Source: an uncultured Bacilli bacterium (GTDB lineage: Bacteria > Bacillota_I > Bacilli_A > RFN20 > CAG-826). From it: a stretch of 33,949 nucleotides of DNA. The notes under the pieces are model-generated. The model was not told the origin of the DNA, did not search any database, and saw nothing but the letters and a program-made list of their open reading frames with translations. Positions 12,704-24,758 of this stretch are shown here, one piece after another; position 1 is the stretch's first letter, and each line of letters opens with the position of its first letter. The position numbers and the translations under genes are program-made. The DNA lies in contig CALVOS010000005.1 of assembly GCA_944350325.1 (NCBI GenBank), positions 1 through 33,949 of the forward strand, in the 5' to 3' direction.

Positions 12704-13873
12704 ATGGCGAACAAGAAGAACGGCAAGAAGGCGCCGAAGAAGGCGCATCCCTTCTGGGCGAGGCTCTGGAGCGGTTTCCGCTACTGGCTCCAGACCCTTT
12801 GGAGCAACGGGGCCTGCCTCCTCGCGAGAGGAAAGCCCTGGTGGGCCTCGATCCCCGTGGTGATCCTCTCCATCATCATCGCGATCATCCCGACCGCCGT
12901 GGCGATGGGGAACGTGAACGCCTCCAGCTTCATCACCCAGAGCGACTACGGCCTCGTCACTCCGACCGCGGCCTTCGTCCGGGACATGGATGAGAAAGGG
13001 ATCCTCCTCTCGATCGACAAGGACGGGATCCTCTCCGACGAGAACGGGTCCTGGGAGAAGGCCTATGGGGCAAATGACCTCGGGGCCTACTACCACACGG
13101 TCGTCCGCGAGGTCGTCAAGCTGCCCGTCGAAAGCGACTCCTCCTTGAGCGAGGTCGTCGGATCCAAGCCCGAGGTCGTCGAGGAGACGATCGTCGACTT
13201 CGCCGTCTACTATGACTACGACGGGCTCTACCCCACCGTCGCGGACCTCTATGAGTTCGTCGTCACGGACGAGAACAGCAAGGACCCGAACGGGGAGGAC
13301 GCCTACTCGGTGAACTCCCTCTTCCTCGATTCCGACGGGTTCATTCTCACCATCATGCCGAACCTCGTCAGCGCGGACGGCCAGAGCCAGGAGACCTCCG
13401 TCCAGTACCGCTGGGATAGCGAGGAATTCCATGGGAAGACCCTCGTGGACCTGCTTACCCCGACCTTCGAGGGCGAGGCCCCCCTCCCGGACTCCTATGA
13501 GTACCGCGAGGCCTCGCGCGCGACGTGGGGACGCTTCCTCGACCTCGGCTACGCCTCGACGAAGTGGAACGCGGCCTGGACGAACGTCGGCATCATCTCC
13601 GCGATCGTCGCGGGCACGATCTTCATCATGGGCCTCATCGTGTTCCTCTCGACGAGAGGGAAGAACAACCCGTACCGCCCACTCAACTTCTGGGATGCCC
13701 AGCAGGCCGTCTACTTCGAGTCCTTCACCTGCTCGGTGATCGCGATGATCCTAGGCTTCGTCTTCGGCGGCTCCAACTACGTGATGGGGATGACCATCTT
13801 CATGATGGTGCTCGCGGTCCGCGTCATCTACACGATCTTCAAGACGATGCGGGGCCCGATCGCCCAGGGCTAG
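12704..13873 (+). CDS. Multi-pass membrane protein of unknown function (possibly DUF1189-like)
   Basis: 389 residues. A Lys-rich cytoplasmic N-terminus leads into a first membrane helix after P-W-W-A-S-I-P (about 46-70). An extracytoplasmic acidic domain of roughly 210 residues follows (about 71-285), then three more helices (about 287-308, 332-352, 354-375). The topology, with one N-terminal helix, a long outside domain and a C-terminal helix cluster, recalls DUF1189-type proteins, but the chain is longer and the match is weak. A modest ribosome site (AGAAAGAAG) precedes the ATG, and an intrinsic terminator follows 20 bases after the stop, so it is probably monocistronic. Confidence 0.7.
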   Translation: MANKKNGKKAPKKAHPFWARLWSGFRYWLQTLWSNGACLLARGKPWWASIPVVILSIIIAIIPTAVAMGNVNASSFITQSDYGLVTPTAAFVRDMDEKGILLSIDKDGILSDENGSWEKAYGANDLGAYYHTVVREVVKLPVESDSSLSEVVGSKPEVVEETIVDFAVYYDYDGLYPTVADLYEFVVTDENSKDPNGEDAYSVNSLFLDSDGFILTIMPNLVSADGQSQETSVQYRWDSEEFHGKTLVDLLTPTFEGEAPLPDSYEYREASRATWGRFLDLGYASTKWNAAWTNVGIISAIVAGTIFIMGLIVFLSTRGKNNPYRPLNFWDAQQAVYFESFTCSVIAMILGFVFGGSNYVMGMTIFMMVLAVRVIYTIFKTMRGPIAQG

Positions 13874-14035: not shown

Positions 14036-14056
14036 GGAAAAAGCCCCCGAGGGGGC
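14036..14056 (-). terminator. Intrinsic terminator of the SipW-type operon
   Basis: On the minus strand GCCCC-CTCG-GGGGC (14056-14043) is followed by TTTTTCC. It is 22 bases beyond the stop of the signal peptidase gene. Together with the plus-strand terminator at 13893 it insulates the two convergent units. Confidence 0.85.
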
Positions 14057-14078: not shown

Positions 14079-15071
14079 CTAGTCCTCAGGCTCCTGGACG
14101 GGGCCCTTCTCCTCCCGGAGGAGGCGCTTGACGATGAGGCGGTGCTCCTCCATCACGTGGTGCTTCGTCTCCCCGTCGATGATGGGGTAGAGGACCCTCT
14201 TCCTCTCCTCGATCCTCCGCCCGAGGGAGATCTCGAAGATGTCGTAGCAGCCTACGAGCACGAGCCCGAAGCAGACGGCGATGATCCCGATGTCGCTTTG
14301 GAGGTATCCGATCGCCATCCCGAGCCCCACGTTCTGGAAGCCGTTATACTCGCCGACGATTCTCTCGAAGGGGACGTCCAGCTCCTCCACGAGGCTCGCG
14401 GAGTTCGCGTCGCCGCGGAAGGTGTAGAGGTCGCCGTTCTCCGTCTCCTCGATGGAGATGAGGCGGTGGACGAGGATCCTGTCCTCCCCCTGGAAGGCGT
14501 AGATGCCGTATAGCCTCATGTCCTCGGGGGCGCTCACCCTATCGAGCCCGACGAGGGCCATCGTGGGGATGTCCTCGGTGAGGTTGTTCTCGACGAGGTA
14601 GGTGTTGCTCTCGTTATCCTCCTCCATCGACCCGGTGCGGATGATGAGACAGGCGGTGTCCCCGAAGAGGAAGGTCTCGCCCGAGGCGCGGGAGTAGGCG
14701 GCGAAGGCAAGGACGGAAAGGCAGAGGAGGTAGACGACGACGAGGACGGCGTTAGCGAGGACCTTGAGGCCGTTCTTGCGCTTCATCACGCCCTTGACGT
14801 GCTCCTCGAGCGTGGGGATCGCCTGGTACTTCTCCTCAAGCGTCATGCTCTCGTCCTGGGCGACCTCGTCAACATGCCGGAAGTAGCGAGGGTTCTCCTG
14901 GATGACCTCCTTCTTGATGTAGGAGTCCTCCAGGGATCCGTCCACGCACTTCCTGTAGTAGCGGTAATACAGGTAGAAGAGGATCCCGAAGGACAAGGTC
15001 AGGAAGAAGATGACGACGATGGAGACGACCATCGAGGTCGTTTCGATGCGGTTCATCGCGAGAGTGAGCAT
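14079..15071 (-). CDS. sipW: SipW/ER-type signal peptidase I with extra membrane segment
   Basis: 330 residues. The nucleophile is in I-I-R-T-G-S-M (S148, M149). I-L-V-H-R-L (H202) replaces the lysine of ordinary signal peptidases, and F-R-G-D-A-N (D221) follows; this Ser-His-Asp set marks the ER/archaeal/SipW type. Membrane helices are predicted at about 14-37, 103-126 and 260-280. Ordinary SipW proteins have about 190 residues. This one has an additional roughly 100-residue N-terminal part with its own helix and a charged C-terminal tail of about 50 residues. An AGGAGG site precedes the ATG at 15071. It is the last gene of an operon of three exported proteins with related signal peptides, its likely substrates. 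Confidence 0.85.
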   Translation of the reverse strand: MLTLAMNRIETTSMVVSIVVIFFLTLSFGILFYLYYRYYRKCVDGSLEDSYIKKEVIQENPRYFRHVDEVAQDESMTLEEKYQAIPTLEEHVKGVMKRKNGLKVLANAVLVVVYLLCLSVLAFAAYSRASGETFLFGDTACLIIRTGSMEEDNESNTYLVENNLTEDIPTMALVGLDRVSAPEDMRLYGIYAFQGEDRILVHRLISIEETENGDLYTFRGDANSASLVEELDVPFERIVGEYNGFQNVGLGMAIGYLQSDIGIIAVCFGLVLVGCYDIFEISLGRRIEERKRVLYPIIDGETKHHVMEEHRLIVKRLLREEKGPVQEPED

Positions 15072-15084
15072 CCTGTCTTTCCTC

Positions 15085-17472
15085 CTAGCTTCCTGGCTTC
15101 CAAAGGTAGAGGGCCATGCTGCCCTGGGGCTCGTAGGTCGCTCCCGAGCCCACGTAGAATTCCATCGGGGTGAAGATTCTCCCCGTGGTGATGTCCTGGA
15201 GGTAGGAGCCCGTCGACCGGTAGACCTCCTTGAGGATATCCGCGAAGGCCTTCGCCGATGTTCCGTCCTTGGAGACGAACGAGGTCTCCGGGGTCAGGGC
15301 CTCGCTTTCCTGGAACGCCTCGAAGCGATAGTCGTAGACGCTGGTGTCGACGAACCCAGCCATGCTCCCATCCTCTTCTCCATGCGTGGGGGCATTGCCG
15401 ATATCGATATCGGGGTCGACGCAGACATTGACGTAGTAGGCGGCCCTCCGCCTTCCGTAGATGGTCACCGTGCTTGGGGTATTCCACGTCCCTGTCTCAT
15501 CCCACTTCATTTCCACAGTCACGAGAAGGTCGTAGGATCCCTTAAAATCATCCTTGGCCTTGGCCAGCGTGTATTGTTTGTCCTCTTCGGTCGTCACGAA
15601 GTATTTCTCGAAGTATTCTCCGCTGAAATCGGAGTAGTTATAGCCTTCGCCGGCGGGACCCGGCCCATTCCCGGGCTTCATCTGGTAGGTCGTGAAGTCC
15701 GCCTGGTTCGCGAGCATCACCGCGAAGATGTCGTTTGTCATAGGGATGTTCCCATTGCTCGTCGTCAGGGTATAGGACGTTTCGCCATCAAGGTTCACGT
15801 TCGTCAGGGTATAGGTGTGCTGGGTGGGTCCTGCCACCTGGGTCATCCCCCTTCCGTTCGCGAAGTCCATCGAACCCGTGTCCCCAAGAATCAGGCGTGG
15901 CTCGTAGACCCTCTCCAGGACGATCGCAAGGGCGCGGGTCTGCGCGTAGAAGGTCCAGTCATAGCCATAAAGATGGGGGCTGCCTCGTTCTTCCCTGGGA
16001 ACCGTCACAAGCTTGACGTGGTCGATGATAACAACCTGGTAGGCGGTTATCCCGTATGAGGAAAAGACATCGACCAGGGCGGATTTGGTGCCAGTCAGCT
16101 CGTTTTCTGCTGTAAATGTAGAAGGCCAATTAGGGGAGAGCCATCCTCCCTCGCTTGTCTCTTTTAGTTGCTGGTCGTCGTTGATGAGGTCGACGAAGTA
16201 GATGTTGTAGCGGCCGCTTAGCCCCGTGATGCTGTTCGGCGCGGCGTTAGCGATGGAGTCGGCTTCCGTGATGTAGAACCGATTCGTCTCATCGTAGTTG
16301 ACGGTTGTTCCGTCATGGTTTGTCTGCACCTGTGCGTCTCCGTCCCATCGGCCTTTATTGTCCACCCCAGGCCATCCAGCATAGTCGACATCGTCGTAGC
16401 CATTGCCCATGGACCGGTTCGGGTCCAGGGCGAATCCTAGGGAAGAGCCGCTTCCTTCCTGGAAGACGACGTTCTCGTAGCGGAACACCTCCACCCTTGT
16501 CCCGGAGGTCACATTTTTCATGACCTCCCGGCTGAGCATTGGGTCATAGGTCGCGTTCGGGCCCTGGCCCCCCATGTCGTACGAGTTTCCGTCGGAGTCC
16601 TTCCCGGGGCCAGGGATGAGATTCACGGCAAGCGCGTCGGTGACGGTCTCGCCCGCGTCATATGCGTGGTTGTTTTTTCCAGAACTGAGGATGGGGTAGA
16701 GGATGAGGTCCTTCCTTCCGTTCCCGTCGATGTCCCTCGCGGCGTAATCCTGGTACTTTTCAAGAAGGGTGTTCGCGGAGAACAGAAGGAGGCTCCCGTC
16801 GTTCGGGTAGTATCCGTCCACCTGGAGGTACTCTATCTCCTCCCCCTCCTCCGTCTTCACGTTCACCACGTTTTTCTTGATAGTTTCCAGTTCCGGCCAG
16901 TGAAGATGTTTGCTGAAATGTGGTCCGAGCGCGAAGTTGCATACGAGCATCGGGGTCCAGCCGACGAGGGAGAGCGGCCAGGGCGTCCTGTCCACGACCT
17001 TCGAGACGAAGGAGGCGTTGATGTCCTCCAACTCCGAATGGGTGATGGAGGTCTTCTTCTCGAAGAAGCGGTAGTAGGAGGGGGAAGTCTCTCCCTCCAC
17101 TTCGAAGTGACCGAGCCTAGGGTCCGTCTGTTCCGCCGCTACCCCTCCATAGCAAGGGTTGGAAGTGCTGAACGAGGATTGATCCGAGCCAAGGATCTGG
17201 CTTCCTACCTGGCTATCCGAGATGTGTCCTGTTGACCCTGTGAGAGGAGTCACCTGCGCTGCGAAATAGACGTCGTAGAACGTCTGGCCCGCGTAGTCGG
17301 GATCGTTGTCGTCCCCGAGGACGTGGTTGTCGCGGATGGGGTCGCCCTGGACGATGACGTTCGCCTTGTCCGAGGCCTCATCGAAAGAGAACATCCACGC
17401 GGCGGATCCCGCGGGGATGAGGGTCGCCAGGAGCGCGATCCCCCCGAAGAGGGCGAAGAGATGCCTACGCAT
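15085..17472 (-). CDS. Large exported protein with SipW-type signal peptide
   Basis: 795 residues. The signal peptide (1-26) ends in A-G-S-A-A-W-M-F, matching the G-x-G-x-S-x-W-x-F ends of the two preceding proteins. The mature part is rich in D, G, Y, T and N, as expected for an extracellular beta-rich protein. It contains a calcium-loop-like D-I-D-G-N-G-R-K-D at 247-255. I see only three cysteines and no C-terminal anchor, LPXTG motif or membrane helix. No enzymatic motif is recognisable. The start overlaps the previous gene by 8 bases, and the signal peptidase gene follows 13 bases after its stop. By analogy with TasA/TapA operons it may be a matrix or fibre component; this is inference. 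Confidence 0.75.
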   Translation of the reverse strand: MRRHLFALFGGIALLATLIPAGSAAWMFSFDEASDKANVIVQGDPIRDNHVLGDDNDPDYAGQTFYDVYFAAQVTPLTGSTGHISDSQVGSQILGSDQSSFSTSNPCYGGVAAEQTDPRLGHFEVEGETSPSYYRFFEKKTSITHSELEDINASFVSKVVDRTPWPLSLVGWTPMLVCNFALGPHFSKHLHWPELETIKKNVVNVKTEEGEEIEYLQVDGYYPNDGSLLLFSANTLLEKYQDYAARDIDGNGRKDLILYPILSSGKNNHAYDAGETVTDALAVNLIPGPGKDSDGNSYDMGGQGPNATYDPMLSREVMKNVTSGTRVEVFRYENVVFQEGSGSSLGFALDPNRSMGNGYDDVDYAGWPGVDNKGRWDGDAQVQTNHDGTTVNYDETNRFYITEADSIANAAPNSITGLSGRYNIYFVDLINDDQQLKETSEGGWLSPNWPSTFTAENELTGTKSALVDVFSSYGITAYQVVIIDHVKLVTVPREERGSPHLYGYDWTFYAQTRALAIVLERVYEPRLILGDTGSMDFANGRGMTQVAGPTQHTYTLTNVNLDGETSYTLTTSNGNIPMTNDIFAVMLANQADFTTYQMKPGNGPGPAGEGYNYSDFSGEYFEKYFVTTEEDKQYTLAKAKDDFKGSYDLLVTVEMKWDETGTWNTPSTVTIYGRRRAAYYVNVCVDPDIDIGNAPTHGEEDGSMAGFVDTSVYDYRFEAFQESEALTPETSFVSKDGTSAKAFADILKEVYRSTGSYLQDITTGRIFTPMEFYVGSGATYEPQGSMALYLWKPGS

Positions 17473-18136
17473 CGGGATATTCCTCCCCCGCGTAGCGGAT
17501 CGTCGCGGTCAGGGAGAACTGGCTCGCGTTCAATAGGTCGCTCAGCTGCCAGTACTCCACGGTGCTGGTCGGCTCCTGCCCGTCCTTCCATTCGAAGATG
17601 GGGGAGTAGGTGATGGTGCTCTCCTCTCCCTCGTCCAGGATGGTCGAGGGAATGATCGCCTTTGTCGCGGAGAAGGAGAGGGAGGAGACCGTCTCCTCGC
17701 TTTCTTGAAGCTGGATCCTATTGAGGAACTCCGACTCCGCCGCCGACCCGTCCTCCCCGGTCTGCTGGAACCCTTCGATCGTCCAGGAAAGCTCGTAGGA
17801 GAGCGACTCGTCGATCGCGTACCCGCTGAAGGTGAGATCGATGGTCCTCGGGGCGAACTCGAGCCTCATCTCGTCCTCCCCGTTCATGAGGAGGCGGTAG
17901 TGCTCGTAGAGCTGAAGCGAAAAGGAGGCGCTGTTTGAACCGTAGACGACATGGGGGATGTCGTTGATGACGAGCTCCCCGATCTCCGCGCGGGCGCGAA
18001 CCTTGATGGATCCTCCCAGGCCCTGGGAAGGGCTGCCGCTATCGAAGCTCCACGTCGAAAACCCGGTGCCGACGATCGCCCCGAAGGACAGGAGTGGCAC
18101 TACGAGGGAAGCTACGATGCGCGTGAGTTTGGGCAA
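17465..18136 (-). CDS. TasA/CalY-like exported protein with SipW-type signal peptide
   Basis: 223 residues from a TTG at 18136 that follows AAGGAGGGG with 5-base spacing; a further TTG at 18160 lacks a ribosome site. The signal peptide is K-L-T-R followed by a hydrophobic core and V-G-T-G-F-S-T-W-S-F (22-31), the same end as in the upstream paralogue. The rest is a beta-rich secreted domain without cysteines or anchor. Camelysin/TasA proteins of similar size are released by SipW and assemble into fibres. The gene lies second in the operon, 85 bases after the first gene, and overlaps the third by 8 bases. The family assignment rests on signal peptide, size and context. Confidence 0.7.
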   Translation of the reverse strand: MPKLTRIVASLVVPLLSFGAIVGTGFSTWSFDSGSPSQGLGGSIKVRARAEIGELVINDIPHVVYGSNSASFSLQLYEHYRLLMNGEDEMRLEFAPRTIDLTFSGYAIDESLSYELSWTIEGFQQTGEDGSAAESEFLNRIQLQESEETVSSLSFSATKAIIPSTILDEGEESTITYSPIFEWKDGQEPTSTVEYWQLSDLLNASQFSLTATIRYAGEEYPDA

Positions 18137-18221
18137 AGAAACCCCTCCTTGGATAGCCAAGCGACGGGACAGGGAACCCCGCCCCGCCGCTTTGGACGAT
18201 GGATGGCGGAAAGAAGGGGGA

Positions 18222-18887
18222 CTAGGCCGCCTTCACGGAGATCTTGGCGTCGAAGTAGACGTTCAGGTTGAACTTCTTGCCGTCGAGGTCGGACTTCATG
18301 GAGTTGTACGACGAGATATCGGTGGGCTTGTTGGCGTAGATGATGCTGTCGAGCGAGCCGATCTCGATGGTCCAGGTGCCGTAGGTGTCGGCGCCGCTGG
18401 TGCTGGTGGTGTAGCCGCCTCCGTTGTTGGAGATGGTCCCGGCGTTGCTGTCTCCGTTGTAGCTGCCGTTCCAGGTGATCCAGTTGGTGAGGTTCGAGGC
18501 GGCGTCCTCAAGAGCGGAGCTTTCCGCGCCGATGGTCTCGAGGACGACCCAGTACTTGATGGTGACGTCGTTGGTCTCGAGGAGCTTCTCGTAGTCCTTC
18601 CAAGTGAGGGTGGCGGTGAGGGTGTTCCCGCTGTTGTAGGAGATGCTGTAGGAGATGCCCTCTTCCTTGTTCGAGTTGTTCACTCCGCCCTGGTCGAGGG
18701 TGAGGGTGAAGGTCTCGGCGTTCAGGGCGACGTTCATCCCCTCGATGAGCGGGGTGACGCTGATGGTGCCGGTGATGCCGTCCGCGGTACGGGCCTCGCT
18801 GGTGAACGTCCAGGCGGAGAAGCCGGATCCGACGATGGCCGCGGCCCCCAGGACGGGAAGCGCGAAGGTGAGGAATTTCTTGTGCAT
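18222..18887 (-). CDS. TasA/CalY-like exported protein, first gene of SipW operon
   Basis: 221 residues from the ATG at 18887 behind a strong AGGAGGT site; an earlier in-frame start at 18923 is not supported. The signal peptide M-H-K-K plus hydrophobic core ends in V-G-S-G-F-S-A-W-T-F (19-28). The mature part is rich in T, S, N and G with a Gly/Asn/Thr-rich stretch (about residues 135-165), as in extracellular beta-sandwich proteins. There are no cysteines, anchor or LPXTG motif. It is probably the most abundant product of the operon, being promoter-proximal with the best ribosome site. A fibre or biofilm subunit is inferred by analogy to TasA. Confidence 0.72.
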   Translation of the reverse strand: MHKKFLTFALPVLGAAAIVGSGFSAWTFTSEARTADGITGTISVTPLIEGMNVALNAETFTLTLDQGGVNNSNKEEGISYSISYNSGNTLTATLTWKDYEKLLETNDVTIKYWVVLETIGAESSALEDAASNLTNWITWNGSYNGDSNAGTISNNGGGYTTSTSGADTYGTWTIEIGSLDSIIYANKPTDISSYNSMKSDLDGKKFNLNVYFDAKISVKAA

Positions 18888-18948: not shown

Positions 18949-18976
18949 ATTATTGATTTCTTTCAATTTCAATCAA
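18949..18976 (-). promoter_or_regulatory. Probable promoter of the SipW-type operon
   Basis: On the minus strand TTGATT (18976-18971), a 16-base spacer and AATAAT (18954-18949) lie about 60 bases upstream of the ATG at 18887. TTGATT and an AATCAA at 18959-18954 also form a small inverted repeat. A CCCG-CTTA-CGGG hairpin sits in the leader near 18934-18945. A second possible -10, TATTAT, lies at 18987-18982. Confidence 0.45.
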
Positions 18977-19180: not shown

Positions 19181-19583
19181 GGGGTCGTTCTGGCTTTGAC
19201 GGGGGATCATCCGGACTTCGATCGCAGTGGCGTGACGAGCCATAACGTCGACTAAAGATAACTGCCAACAGCTATCCTGTTTGGAGGCAGGGCTCTGCCC
19301 GCGTCTCCTACGCCGCGGCCTAACTAGGTAATCTACGGATTCCCTCCTCTCACTGAAGGAGGGCCGGCTCGTCCTCCTCCTCTCGCGTCCCGGGGGAGGG
19401 CAGGGCGTCATCAGGGACGATAAGAGCCAGCCTCCGGCCCGGGGCGGGCTACGAAAACCTCAGGGCCTGGGCTCCCCGGGAAATGGTTCTGCCTTACCGG
19501 GGGCGACAGACGCAGGACCTAAACTGTAGAAGTCGTCGCCTGGAATCCTTCGGACAGGGGTTCGAATCCCCTCGACTCCACCA
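19181..19583 (+). ncRNA. ssrA: tmRNA (one-piece)
   Basis: The 5' GGGGTCG (19181-19187) pairs with CGACTCC (19573-19579), followed by an A and an encoded CCA (19581-19583), forming the tRNA-like acceptor stem. The T-arm AGGGGTTCGAATCCCCT lies just before the 3' strand. G-A-C-G-G-G follows the 5' stem as in other tmRNAs. An internal tag frame starts at 19264 after ATAACT. The molecule releases stalled ribosomes by trans-translation with SmpB and tags the nascent chain for proteolysis. An intrinsic terminator follows. Gene order here is not conserved with any neighbour I recognise. Confidence 0.95.
19264..19323 (+). other. tmRNA proteolysis tag frame
   Basis: The resume codon GCC at 19264 follows the typical ATAACT context, and the frame ends with TAA at 19321. 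The encoded tag has 19 residues: A-N-S-Y-P-V-W-R-Q-G then S-A-R-V-S-Y-A-A-A. The start (A-N) and end (Y-A-A-A) fit known tags, but the length and the W and two R residues are unusual compared with the common 10-15 residue tags ending ALAA. Confidence 0.8.
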
Positions 19584-19802: not shown

Positions 19803-20453
19803 CTAGCGTCCCAGCCGTTCGAGAAGGGGGACGATGTCCCCGGCATCCTCTCCCTCGTAGTCCTTGAGAGGGCATTTCCGGGCGTCCTTGATCGCGAAGG
19901 AGAGGCAGCCCGCCCCGTGCGCGCTTTCGATCCCCGCGACCGCGTCCTCGACGACGAGGCATTCCCCATGGGGGAGCCCGAGGCGGTCCGCGGCGAGGGA
20001 GAACACCTCAGGGTCGGGCTTGCTCCTCCTGATGTCGTTCCCGTCGACGATGACGTCGAACTCCCCTCTTATCCCTAGCCTTTCGAGAATCCTCATCGTG
20101 TTCTTGCTCGAGCTCCCGATCGCCTTCTTGATGCCTCTTTCCCTGAGGTAGTCGAGCGCCTTTCTCGCCCCGGGGTCGATGGAGGAGGGATCGATCGCGG
20201 AAAGCCCATCCACGTAGATGCGGTTCTTCTTCTCCGCGAGAGCCTCCTTCTCCTCCGGGGAGTAGGTTCTTCCCGCCTTCTCGAGGATGATCTCGAGGGA
20301 GCGGAGGCGCGAGACCCCGCGGAGGCGCTCGTTGTCCTCCCTCTCGAAGGGAATGCCTTCCGCATCGGCGATCGCCTTCCAGGCTCTGTAATGGATTTCG
20401 TCCGTCGAGCAGATGACTCCGTCGAGATCGAAGATGACTGCCTTGATTCCCAT
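19803..20453 (-). CDS. pgmB: Beta-phosphoglucomutase
   Basis: 216 residues, the normal size. Motif I is F-D-L-D-G-V-I-C-S-T-D-E-I-H-Y-R-A-W (D9 nucleophile, D11 acid/base), which includes the substrate-specific H-x-R-A-W of beta-PGM. Motif II is I-G-S-S-S-K-N, and the S-K-P-D-P-E-V-F and V-V-E-D-A-V-A-G-I-E-S-A segments complete the HAD core. It converts beta-glucose-1-phosphate, the product of inverting GH65 phosphorylases, into glucose-6-phosphate. It starts two bases after the GH65 stop, so it is translationally coupled and ends the sugar operon. Confidence 0.95.
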   Translation of the reverse strand: MGIKAVIFDLDGVICSTDEIHYRAWKAIADAEGIPFEREDNERLRGVSRLRSLEIILEKAGRTYSPEEKEALAEKKNRIYVDGLSAIDPSSIDPGARKALDYLRERGIKKAIGSSSKNTMRILERLGIRGEFDVIVDGNDIRRSKPDPEVFSLAADRLGLPHGECLVVEDAVAGIESAHGAGCLSFAIKDARKCPLKDYEGEDAGDIVPLLERLGR

Positions 20454-20455
20454 CC

Positions 20456-22516
20456 TTAGAACTTCCTTTCCTTGGGGACGCCCCCTTCCTTGTAGCGGTA
20501 GCGCATCCCCCTCATTCCTTCCGGGAGACGGGGGGAGAAGCGGACCTTCCCTTCCTTGATCCTCGCTCCCAGGAGCCCGCGGGCGAGGTCGAGGTAGGCC
20601 CCTCCCATCGCGGCGGGATGGCTTCCCCCGATGTAGATGCCTCCGGCGAAGAGCTTCTTGCCTCCCCGGATGTCGGTGAGGGCGCTTTCCCTCATGTAGC
20701 GGACCGCCTTCCCTAGCTCCCCGCACCAGGCGGAGAGAAGGCCGTACATGGAGTTCGATAGGGAGCTCCCGCCCTCCGTGTAGGGCTCATAGAAGCGAAG
20801 GTTCCTTTTGAGGACCTCAGGGGAGTAGCGCTCCGGATGGAGGGCGAGCAGGGCGACGACGTCGGCCTGCTTGATGACCCTGGTGGGAGTCGCCTTCCCC
20901 TCCTTTCCTCCGAGGTACTCCTTCGGATCCTCGATCCTCTTCCGGAACTCCCGGTACTTGACGTCCTCGAGGGCGAAGTAGCCGTCGAACTGCTCGATGA
21001 AGCCGTCCTTCCCTGGCTTCGGGACATGGATCCTTCTCGCGAAGCGGAGCCATCCCTTGAGATCCTCCTCAGGGATGCCCCCGTAGCCCTTCTTTCTCAG
21101 ATAGGAGACGGCGTCCTCGATCTCGAAGCGGACCATCGCGTTGGTATAGGCGTTGTCGTCCACGAGCTCGTGGTATTCGTCAGGACCGATGACCCCCCTG
21201 AAGTGGAAGAGGCCATCCTCTTTGAGGGACGCCCTGCTCTTGTAGAAGCGGACCACCTCCCGGAGGACCTCCTTCCCGCCCTCGTCGAGGATCCCGAGGT
21301 CCCCGGTCGCCCTCACGTACTCCATGAGGCCATGGAGGACGTCGATCGAGATATGGATCTGGCAGTCGGCGAAGTAGGTCCTTATGGGCTCCCCGGTCTT
21401 CGGGTCCGTGACGTTATATAGGGAGCACCCCTCCACCCCGTCCTCCTGGGACTCCCAGGCGTAGAAGGCCCCTTCGAACCCGAACTCCCGCGCCTTCCGG
21501 ATCGCGCCCGGGAGGGTGTTGATCCGGTACTGGACGAGGAGGCGCGCCGCCTCCTGGTCGGTGAGGAGGAAGAAGGGGAGGAGGAACATCTCCGTGTCCC
21601 AGAAGATAGCCCCCTTGTAGACCTGGCCGGAGAGGCCCCTCGCGGGAATGGACGTCGCCTTCCTATGGTTCCCGAGGATGAGGAGGGAATAGACCGCGTG
21701 GTCGATTCCCTTCTGGAGCTCGCCCTTCCGGGGAAGGATTGCCCGCGCCTCCTCGAAGGCACGCTCGAAGGAGAAGAGGTGCCTTCTTCTCGCCTCCTCG
21801 TAGGAAAGCGGGGCCTCCTCCTCGATTTCCCCGTCGATCCTCGCCTCGCCGATCTTCCGGAGGAGGATCCTCTCCCCTTGCCGGAGAGCGGCCTCGTAGA
21901 GATATCCCGCCCGTTCCTTTTCCAGGAAGGGCCTTCTTTCGTGGTTTCCCTCCTCATGGAGGATCACCTCGACCTTCCTCCCCTCGTTGGTGATGCCCGA
22001 GGCCAGGACGGATCCATCCTCCAGGAAGGAGAGGGACTTCTCGGGGAAGTGGGGCCCGTTGATCTCGTGGATGTCGGTGGTAAGGAAGGAGGAAAGGAGG
22101 ACCTTCGTCTCCTTCCTCGCCCTCACCTCGATCTTCTGAAGGAGATGAAGCCCTCCCCCGTAGGGACAGAATCGCTCCGTCCTCACCTCGATGTCCTCGT
22201 AGACGTCCTTCCGATAGAGGATTCCGTGCCTCATGTCGAGGCGGAACTCCCGATGGAGCGCCTCCCGTCCCGGGATGGTCCCGAGCGCGGTCTCTACGCG
22301 GAAGGGGAGGGGGTCGAAGAGGTTGATGGGCTCCCTCCACTTGTCCTCCCGCTGGTCGTAGGTCCCGATGAGGGAGAAGACCGATCTCTCTTCCTTCCCG
22401 TGCTCCTCCCTGGTCCCCTTGTAGCCGACCCTCCCGTTCCCGACGAGGAAGGCGTTGGCGATCCTCTCCAGGTCCGCGGGGGAGTACTCACGCGCGATCA
22501 GGGATCGGGGCCTCAT
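20456..22516 (-). CDS. GH65 family sugar phosphorylase, short type
   Basis: 686 residues from the ATG at 22516, which follows GGAAGGT. The N-terminal domain has F-L-V-G-N-G-R-V-G-Y-K-G-T-R-E-E (about 24-39), the usual GH65 opening. The (alpha/alpha)6 domain carries G-V-I-G-P-D-E-Y-H-E-L-V-D-D-N-A-Y-T-N with the general acid E447. The phosphate-site elements are V-I-K-Q-A-D-V-V and E-G-G-S-S-L-S-N-S. GH65 enzymes cleave alpha-glucosides with inversion to beta-glucose-1-phosphate. The actual disaccharide (maltose, kojibiose, nigerose, trehalose, glucosylglycerol and others) cannot be assigned. The G-G before S-S-L-S, where the neighbour has H-E, suggests a different specificity. The start overlaps the preceding GH65 gene by 29 bases. 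Confidence 0.9.
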   Translation of the reverse strand: MRPRSLIAREYSPADLERIANAFLVGNGRVGYKGTREEHGKEERSVFSLIGTYDQREDKWREPINLFDPLPFRVETALGTIPGREALHREFRLDMRHGILYRKDVYEDIEVRTERFCPYGGGLHLLQKIEVRARKETKVLLSSFLTTDIHEINGPHFPEKSLSFLEDGSVLASGITNEGRKVEVILHEEGNHERRPFLEKERAGYLYEAALRQGERILLRKIGEARIDGEIEEEAPLSYEEARRRHLFSFERAFEEARAILPRKGELQKGIDHAVYSLLILGNHRKATSIPARGLSGQVYKGAIFWDTEMFLLPFFLLTDQEAARLLVQYRINTLPGAIRKAREFGFEGAFYAWESQEDGVEGCSLYNVTDPKTGEPIRTYFADCQIHISIDVLHGLMEYVRATGDLGILDEGGKEVLREVVRFYKSRASLKEDGLFHFRGVIGPDEYHELVDDNAYTNAMVRFEIEDAVSYLRKKGYGGIPEEDLKGWLRFARRIHVPKPGKDGFIEQFDGYFALEDVKYREFRKRIEDPKEYLGGKEGKATPTRVIKQADVVALLALHPERYSPEVLKRNLRFYEPYTEGGSSLSNSMYGLLSAWCGELGKAVRYMRESALTDIRGGKKLFAGGIYIGGSHPAAMGGAYLDLARGLLGARIKEGKVRFSPRLPEGMRGMRYRYKEGGVPKERKF

Positions 22517-24758
22517 AGGTACCTTCCACGTGCCGTTTCTCGCCATAGAGGACGATGTCCACGGGCCCGTCGAGGGCAAGGAGGACGACCTTCCTCTCCT
22601 CCACCCTCGTCTCGAGCCTCTTCCCGTCCACGAGGAGGCGGAAGCTATAGGACTTCCACTTCCTCGGGAGATAGGGGGCGAGGGAAAGCTCCCTTCCGTC
22701 GCTTCGGAAGCCTCCGAAGCCATAGACGATCGTGTTCCACGCGGCGGCGATGGAGGTGAGGTGGAGCCCCTCGCCCGTGTTCCCGTTCCAGTCGTCGAGG
22801 TCGAGCCTCGAGGCAAAGCCATAGAGGCGGAGGGCCTCCTCCTCCCTTCCTAGGGCCGAGGCGAGGATCGAATGGACGCTCGGGGAGAGGGAGCTCTCGT
22901 GGATGCAGCGGGGCTCGTAGTAGTCGTAGTTCCTCTCAAGAACCTCCTTCCTCGTCGTGCTGAGGAAGAGGAAGAGGTGCATGAGGACCGCCGGCTGCTT
23001 GATCATGTCCCCGCGGTAGATGCGGTCGTAGGACCAGTGGGAGTAGAGGGGGAAGTCCGACTCGGGGATGCTCCCGACGTCGATGTGGGGGAGCGAGAAG
23101 AAGCCCTCGTTCTGCTCATAGAGGAGGGTCTCGGGGTCGAAGGGGATGAGCATCGCGTCGGCGGCCTCCCGGATCTCCTCGAGGAACTTCTCCCCGAACC
23201 CCTCCCTCTTGAGAAGCCTCTGGAGCGAGCGGTGCCTTTTCCTCATCATCTCGAAGAAGTCGAGGGTGAGCTCGAAGGTGAACTTCGCCATGAGGTTCGT
23301 GTAGGAGTCGTGGTTCACCATCATCTTGAACTCGTCCGGGCCCATGACCGCATAGTAGCCGAACCTCTTTCTTTCCTGGTCCCACTGGCCGCGGTCGAGG
23401 AGGAAGCGGGAGATTTCGAGGAGGACCTCCATCCCTCCCTTGAGGAGAAGGGAGTCGTCCTTGGTGACGTTATAGTGGTGGTAGAGGGCGTAGGCGGTCC
23501 CGGTGGAGGCCTGGAACTGGAGGGAGGCGTGCTGCCATAGGGCGCATCCTTCCTCTCCGTTCAGCGTGGCGACGGGGTAGCAGGCCCCACGGCAGTCGAG
23601 CATCCTTGCCCGTTCCTTCGCCTCCTTGAGGGTATGGATGCGGAAGAGGATGAGGGATTCCGCGGCCTTGGGGTTCGTGAAAAGGAAGTAGGGGAGGCAG
23701 AAGGTCTCCGAGTCCCAGAAGGTATGTCCGCTATAGGCCTCGCCGGTGAGCCCTTTTGCAGGGACGTTGTCCCGGTCGCTGTAGCCGCTATAGGTCGTGT
23801 TCAGCATGAACATGCAGTAGCGGATCCCCTGGAGGTCCTCCTCGTCCCCCTCGATCGTGATGCGCCCCCGTTCTTCGAGGCGGTTCAGGAAGAGGCGGTT
23901 CCCTTCCCGGACGTCCTCGAAGGTTCTGTCCTTTCTTTCGGAAAGCTCCGCGAGGGCCCGGGCGAGAAGGTCTCTCTTCCCGGATTCCCTGCTGTGGAGG
24001 GAGCACGCCCTCCTTTCGAAGGAGGCCTTGCCCTCGAGGAGGAAGCGGTAGCGGGTCCCGACCTCCTTCCTTCCCTCGACTCGCTCGCCCTTGAGCGGCA
24101 GGGAAGGGACGGCCTCCATCGCTCCTCCCAGGAGGATGTCGGTGAAGAGGGTCTTCGCCCGGATGGCGGGGAAGGAGTCGTCCTTCCTCCACATGTGGAA
24201 CTGGCTTTCCTTCCCCCACTGGGGAAGGTCGAAGTCAAGGAGGAAGGAAAGGTCGATCTCGACGGGGGAGTCGCTTTCGAGCCACACCCTCTGCCTCGCC
24301 TCGTGGGGGTTCTCGTAGTCGAGGATCCTCTCGATGAGGACGCGGAGCTTCTTCCCGTTTCCTAGCGTCCAGAGGAAGGAGCGGGAATAGAGCCCGTCCT
24401 CGAAGGAAAGGGAGCGCTCGAACTCCGAGAAGCGAACCTTCCCGAGGTCGAGCCTCTCGCCGTCCGCCAGGAGGCGGATCTTCCAGTAGTCGAGGGCGTT
24501 CACCATGTAGTGGGTCCGCTCGACGATGCCCTTGTAGGCGTTCGGGGTCTTCTCCCGCGCGTAGTCGTAGACCCCGTTGAAGTAGGAGCCGCGGAGGCTC
24601 TTGCCGGAGTAGCCCTCCTCGAAGTAGCCGCGGGAGCCCATGAACTCGTCGCTCAGGCTGAAGAGGCTTTCCGCGGCGAGCGCCCTTTCCTCATGGAACC
24701 CGATCTCCCGGATGGCGTTCCTCTCCACCTCGAGGAACCGATGCGCTTCCTTGCCCAT
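22488..24758 (-). CDS. GH65 family sugar phosphorylase, maltose-phosphorylase-like
   Basis: 756 residues from the ATG at 24758. The opening E-S-L-F-S-L-S-D-E-F-M-G-S-R-G-Y-F-E-E-G-Y-S-G matches the maltose-phosphorylase type, but D-E replaces the common G-N-G. The catalytic segment is V-M-G-P-D-E-F-K-M-M-V-N-H-D-S-Y-T-N with acid E476. The phosphate site is M-I-K-Q-P-A-V and C-I-H-E-S-S-L-S-P. It is expected to phosphorolyse an alpha-glucosyl disaccharide to beta-glucose-1-phosphate in the cytoplasm. The gene follows the permease gene by 5 bases and overlaps the second GH65 gene, so all are in one operon. Two clearly different GH65 proteins side by side suggest two linkages or chain types. 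Confidence 0.9.
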   Translation of the reverse strand: MGKEAHRFLEVERNAIREIGFHEERALAAESLFSLSDEFMGSRGYFEEGYSGKSLRGSYFNGVYDYAREKTPNAYKGIVERTHYMVNALDYWKIRLLADGERLDLGKVRFSEFERSLSFEDGLYSRSFLWTLGNGKKLRVLIERILDYENPHEARQRVWLESDSPVEIDLSFLLDFDLPQWGKESQFHMWRKDDSFPAIRAKTLFTDILLGGAMEAVPSLPLKGERVEGRKEVGTRYRFLLEGKASFERRACSLHSRESGKRDLLARALAELSERKDRTFEDVREGNRLFLNRLEERGRITIEGDEEDLQGIRYCMFMLNTTYSGYSDRDNVPAKGLTGEAYSGHTFWDSETFCLPYFLFTNPKAAESLILFRIHTLKEAKERARMLDCRGACYPVATLNGEEGCALWQHASLQFQASTGTAYALYHHYNVTKDDSLLLKGGMEVLLEISRFLLDRGQWDQERKRFGYYAVMGPDEFKMMVNHDSYTNLMAKFTFELTLDFFEMMRKRHRSLQRLLKREGFGEKFLEEIREAADAMLIPFDPETLLYEQNEGFFSLPHIDVGSIPESDFPLYSHWSYDRIYRGDMIKQPAVLMHLFLFLSTTRKEVLERNYDYYEPRCIHESSLSPSVHSILASALGREEEALRLYGFASRLDLDDWNGNTGEGLHLTSIAAAWNTIVYGFGGFRSDGRELSLAPYLPRKWKSYSFRLLVDGKRLETRVEERKVVLLALDGPVDIVLYGEKRHVEGTYEAPIPDRA

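Follow-up and report, generated by a model that had tools for sequence, protein, structure and literature searches.

What do a signal peptidase and three exported proteins, encoded side by side in an uncultured Bacilli bacterium, do together? SipW-dependent matrix fibres are known from a handful of cultured species of Bacillus and Clostridium. An earlier note on this DNA compared the genes to tapA-sipW-tasA of Bacillus and took them for a self-contained fibre or coat system.

A four-gene operon on the minus strand

In the list of open reading frames for the window (the whole stretch of DNA that was analysed, 33,949 nucleotides), four tightly packed genes run in one direction on the minus strand, from 18887 to 14079. 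We call them A, B, C, and D. The features of the locus are:

18222..18887, minus strand: gene A, with ATG at 18887; 221-residue exported protein (open reading frame; homologues in many related genomes)
18804..18815, minus strand: AWTF (residues 25-28 of A), the motif that closes the A export signal
17465..18136, minus strand: gene B, with a TTG start and AAGGAGG just 5' of it; 223-residue exported protein (open reading frame, alignment, and hhalign comparison with A)
18044..18055, minus strand: TWSF (residues 28-31 of B), the motif that closes the B export signal
15085..17472, minus strand: gene C; 795-residue exported protein (open reading frame, family alignments, structural model, and hydropathy)
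17389..17400, minus strand: AWMF (residues 25-28 of C), the motif that closes the C export signal
14079..15071, minus strand: gene D; 330-residue SipW-type (ER-type) signal peptidase with Ser148/His202/Asp221
14043..14056, minus strand: intrinsic terminator closing the operon, directly after D; GCCCCCTCGGGGGC-TTTTT, a stem of 5 GC pairs and then T5
18949..18976, minus strand: weak promoter-like site 5' of A; TTGATT-16-AATAAT (1 found versus 1.1 expected)

The earlier note had described a four-gene unit at 14079-18887 in which a SipW-type peptidase is paired with three exported proteins. This unit is real, and it lies on the minus strand with those coordinates. The intergenic gaps are 85 nt (A/B), -8 nt (B/C), and 13 nt (C/D), and a Shine-Dalgarno-like sequence precedes all four starts. 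(The longest alternative reading of gene B starts at 18160 and gives 231 residues.) When we scanned upstream of A for promoters, the sole promoter-like site was no better than chance. By hydropathy, A, B, and C each have one N-terminal hydrophobic segment and no second membrane segment.

Upstream, the operon is bounded by a divergent tmRNA gene (window 19181-19583, plus strand; tag ANSYPVWRQGSARVSYAAA). Farther upstream, at 19803-22822 on the minus strand, visual inspection suggests a glycoside phosphorylase-like gene (20456-22822) and then a beta-phosphoglucomutase-like gene (within 19803-20726). On the other side, a 389-residue membrane protein that belongs to no known family is encoded convergently to the operon (12704-13873, plus strand). 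Similar membrane proteins adjoin the cassette in two other genomes, G011 and G022 (L054:5918-7162 and L055:7155-8351). The genome also has a sortase gene, which lies elsewhere and not within the operon.

D is an ER-type signal peptidase

The best family match for D is SipW of Bacillus (NF046067; E = 3.7e-10, 39.7 bits), and D also matches TIGR02228 (E = 1.6e-4). Because its 39.7 bits are far below the curated cut-off of NF046067 (190 bits), we classify D, by sequence, as a signal peptidase of the ER type that lies outside the SipW equivalog itself. In a profile search of the PDB, the nearest solved relatives of D were the eukaryotic signal peptidase subunits SEC11C/A. The earlier note had recognized a Ser-His-Asp signal peptidase, and the catalytic residues are indeed in place (S148-M149, H202-R203, and G220-D221). 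S148, M149, H202, R203, and D221 are invariant in 17/17 homologues, and all 17 of these cassette homologues match the SipW model. Hydropathy predicts three membrane segments in D, at about residues 9-36, 100-130, and 253-284.

The export signals of A, B, and C have a conserved end

The signal ends that had been read from the three exported proteins are exactly as quoted: GSGFSAWTF in A, GTGFSTWSF in B, and AGSAAWMF in C. Their common form is [S/A]-x-[W/F]-x-F, which is kept in nearly all homologues. In large alignments that were assembled partly by a motif filter (49 A, 41 B, and 35 C homologues), W26 of A is present in 49/49 and F28 in 47/49. In B, the aromatic residue is found in 41/41 and a phenylalanine or tyrosine two positions on in 41/41; the corresponding counts for C are 35/35 and 34/35. 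In smaller sets of A and B, whose members had been picked by their gene position, the motif is likewise invariant (17/17 each). Most other alignment columns vary; few parts of the three proteins are as well kept as the signal end. The conservation of the motif exceeds chance. The published model for SipW-cognate signals (TIGR04088, with a cut-off of 19 bits) had no match above its cut-off in the whole genome; the best score was 10.3 bits, elsewhere.

Where might these signals be cut? TasA is cut between TWA and AFND, and by analogy, the cut in A, B, and C probably falls after the serine or alanine, which would leave W or F at position P2'. LepB, a P-type peptidase, is hindered by an aromatic residue at P2', and for TasA the cut is made by an ER-type SipW of its own (PMC10269814). 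Given these two findings, it makes sense for the three proteins to have a linked peptidase such as D. But F28 (P4') is kept as well as W26 in the three families, which is more than the avoidance of LepB alone would need. This fits a common donor strand; recognition by the peptidase could explain it equally well.

The cassette is conserved within one order

In 45 loci (non-duplicate neighbourhoods), genes of the C and D types share one strand with two or more genes of the A/B type. These loci were picked for holding C or D, so the figure shows linkage and says nothing about frequency. (Some of the large genes in the C position were assigned by position, size, and signal rather than by the first HMM; several of these were later caught by a better one.) Also, among 60 relatives, D has full-length homologues that adjoin C-type genes.

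The order A-B-C-D, which the earlier note had suggested searching for, does recur, 16 times. Other orders occur too: A-C-D-B and B-C-D-A account for 11 loci in all, and A-D-B-C accounts for another 11. Having the peptidase last is thus not a defining trait of the system. Neither is a GC-rich lineage, as other families of the same order carry the same gene set.

Within the order, C is present in 39 of 279 genomes and a SipW-type peptidase in 101 of 279. All 39 genomes with C are among those 101 (Fisher p about 2e-20, uncorrected for relatedness). The earlier note had reasoned that these proteins should not be common in genomes that lack a SipW-type peptidase, and the number of genomes with C and no such peptidase is 0 of 279. 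An A-like match also occurs in genome G162, which is absent from the list of peptidase-positive genomes. In phylum-wide samples (392 genomes), we found mature A in 22 genomes and C in 23. These were largely the same genomes, and all were from this order. The named records of the family are from assemblies of uncultured Bacilli or Firmicutes. A literature search, mainly of openly accessible papers, found no description of this cassette.

These results bear on two simpler explanations. First, unrelated exported proteins might have been grouped by chance near a peptidase gene. The sole point in favour of this is that A, B, and C do not belong to known families. The 45 one-strand loci with the same kinds of genes, the homology of A and B (see below), and the association of C with SipW-type peptidases all argue against it. 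Because of this conservation, a chance grouping is refuted in practice, and we give it almost no credence.

Second, the x-W-x-F end might be a mere feature of a membrane anchor or signal. The proteins would then stay attached by an uncut N-terminus, and D would serve other substrates. In agreement with this, the same genome has a second SipW-type locus with apparent substrates of its own. Against it, D adjoins the genes for A/B and C in every complete cassette that we examined, and none of the 279 genomes was found to have C without a SipW-type peptidase. We consider uncut anchors to be improbable.

Some cassettes are expanded: a single D and a single C are surrounded by as many as six genes of the A/B type (L135 in genome G072, L128, and L129), as though duplication were diversifying the small subunits. 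In another family of the same order (L151/L152, in genomes G053 and G048), D is followed by exported proteins of 500 residues with VGSGFAVWNF ends. They look like enlarged or fused proteins of the A/B type.

Homology between A and B

A and B are homologous: hhalign gives a probability of 99.8% at full length and still 98.8% (E = 6e-17) once the signals have been removed. In the profile alignment, their identity is about 15-17%. A has a near-invariant LDQGG motif and a conserved KPT...Y..M motif, and a late KP...Y motif is common to A and B. No member of either family had a convincing match in Pfam or NCBIfam, and neither single proteins nor profiles had a credible sequence match in the PDB.

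The AlphaFold model of A is of moderate confidence (pLDDT 72) and is beta-rich, with confident stretches. In this monomer model, the chain is unstructured from the signal to about residue 47. With the model as the query, Foldseek had no match below E = 0.001, and VIA-align had no match with a Z-score of 8 or more.

Are A and B related to TasA?

The fibre proteins TasA and camelysin belong to PF12389. The PF12389 model identified its targets in a B. subtilis control and in six genomes of the class, and it had no match among the A members, the B members, or the rest of this genome. When we compared mature A and B to five PF12389-positive proteins (a shallow set) by hhalign, the probabilities were 0.1% and 0.7%. 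A phmmer search from a PF12389 protein towards TasA also had no match.

In the VIA-align comparison, the TasA fibre (8aur_A) ranked 7th against the model of A (Z = 4.0, 136 aligned residues, rmsd 5.1), which is not above unrelated rows. It was the longest alignment among the rows shown. The list also includes immunoglobulin-like domains and the donor-strand pilins CfaB, FimF, and Csu (Z of 3-4). VIA-align warns that such Z-scores may mean a common arrangement only, and none of them reaches the level at which relatives can be told apart from common beta sandwiches. We treat the link to TasA as a working analogy and not as membership in the family. The earlier view of a self-contained SipW-type system stands in that a peptidase with three linked exported proteins forms a conserved module; membership in the TasA/camelysin family, by sequence, does not.

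C is the hallmark of the cassette

C is the hallmark of the cassette, and in profile comparisons it shares only the signal region with B. It had no match in Pfam or NCBIfam and no credible sequence match in the PDB, whether we used single proteins or profiles, and one scan of viral contigs found no relative. The model of C (pLDDT 77.8, pTM 0.74) is large and mostly beta, with no recognized fold (no Foldseek match below E = 0.001; no VIA-align Z-score of 8 or more). We also considered InlB-type beta-grasp repeats, because of a ...F.GW...LYPIYS motif in C and weak structural rows for ubiquitin and InlB. We rejected this idea: hhalign comparison to three Flg_new repeats of the same genome gave a probability of 0.5%.

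The strongest structural match of C is in residues 522-676, which resemble one domain of the sugar-binding protein SusF (VIA-align Z = 6.7). This match raises the question of whether the SipW-type peptidase exports three surface proteins that act singly or as a complex, such as a sugar-binding or adhesive coat, with no filament. C is also unlike any known filament tip, and the up to six copies of A/B could be a diversifying repertoire of surface proteins. However, published work describes SipW substrates of both Bacillus and C. perfringens that build extracellular fibres (PMC13082335, PMC7395162, PMC9674648). Moreover, small A/B proteins are regularly paired with a single large C, which points to fixed roles within one assembly. 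We view separate surface proteins as a minority possibility.

A proposed mechanism

On balance, we lean towards dedicated SipW-type export followed by donor-strand assembly of a surface filament or coat. The two parts of this proposal differ in strength. It is very probable, given the linkage, the motif, and the catalytic residues, that the three co-encoded proteins have a dedicated SipW-type export route, with the cleavage itself being predicted. We are evenly divided on whether they assemble into a filament or coat via N-terminal donor strands, which we propose because of several precedents. TasA subunits are joined by an N-terminal donor strand (PMC9674648), and TasA and TapA have the first residues of the mature chain in common (PMC10151520). 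Furthermore, sipW operons of B. cereus (PMC13082335) and C. perfringens (PMC7395162) form filaments from small exported proteins.

We propose that A, B, and C would leave the cell via Sec. Their signal peptides would end with [S/A], with x-[W/F]-x-F just past the cut, and an ordinary P-type signal peptidase would handle this site badly. The linked ER-type peptidase D would cut all three instead. The freed N-termini, which would start with x-[W/F]-x-F, could then serve as donor strands, each inserting into the beta-sandwich of an adjacent A or B subunit, and the product would be an extracellular filament or coat. The unstructured N-terminal part of the A model and its beta-rich remainder are as expected of a donor strand. 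Our guess, from size and copy number, is that A would be the main subunit, B a related minor or adaptor subunit, and C a large end piece (a tip adhesin or a base).

A more specific proposal is that this is a lineage-wide, three-component donor-strand filament with no relation to TasA by sequence. It would have a pair of small subunits that are homologous and a terminal subunit of very large size, all with a common mature N-terminal strand that is released by a dedicated ER-type peptidase. It would be either an independent or an extremely diverged solution of the TasA type. We put this forward tentatively and think it rather doubtful.

Comparison to known systems

Like tapA-sipW-tasA of B. subtilis, the cassette links a SipW-type peptidase to small exported proteins in which an aromatic residue closely follows the (predicted) cut. 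The subunits are of TasA size, and the co-exported proteins have a mature N-terminus in common. In contrast to the B. subtilis operon, A and B have no detectable sequence relation to the TasA family and are homologous to each other. The cassette also adds a third exported protein, of 700-1000 residues, that has no counterpart in the Bacillus operon, and its peptidase is longer by about 100 residues at the N-terminus and has one more membrane segment.

The sipW-tasA/calY/capP region of B. cereus has two related small filament proteins and one accessory protein, all reportedly processed by SipW (PMC13082335), which is similar to the cassette. However, CalY and TasA are camelysins that are 61% identical, whereas A and B are only about 15-17% identical and fall outside the camelysin family by sequence. 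Also, no protein of the size of C has been described from that region. In C. perfringens, sipW-bsaABCRSD similarly combines sipW with several exported proteins, one of which polymerizes (PMC7395162), but unlike the cassette, it carries its own two-component system. The chaperone-usher pilins FimF, CfaB, and Csu are donor-strand beta-sandwich subunits that appear in the structural list for A (Z of 3-4). These pilins depend on a periplasmic chaperone and on an outer-membrane usher. The operon encodes neither, and the likeness is at the level of a common fold only.

Our results add an order of uncultured Bacilli with small genomes to the groups that have a complete, recurring cassette of this kind, along with three protein families that are outside the curated libraries. 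If the cassette builds a filament, then it predicts a surface structure and an adhesion system for these bacteria. It would also offer a way to separate the general features of TasA (a dedicated peptidase, an aromatic mature N-terminus, and a donor strand) from those that are local to Bacillus.

Other peptidases related to D

The same genome has a second SipW-type locus (L007:5450-7987 on contig C84, and L002/L006 on contig C53), with a counterpart at L070:3901-6772. It encodes two exported proteins, with signals that end in TTAGATWIIG and SGVAFSAWILSG, and then a SipW-type peptidase. It has no C-type gene; contig ends cut the assembly there. Peptidases from cassettes match D over its full length, including the extra N-terminal membrane segment, while those from the second locus match mostly from about residue 97 and form a separate group in a quick tree. 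A third, weaker signal peptidase-like protein (L008:703-1347, contig C64) scores 40 bits against D and has an SESM motif. Finally, the cassette peptidases of several genomes have long C-terminal extensions, some of them acidic, which bring the total length to 500-1013 residues (L056:7298-9253, L060, and L116-L119).
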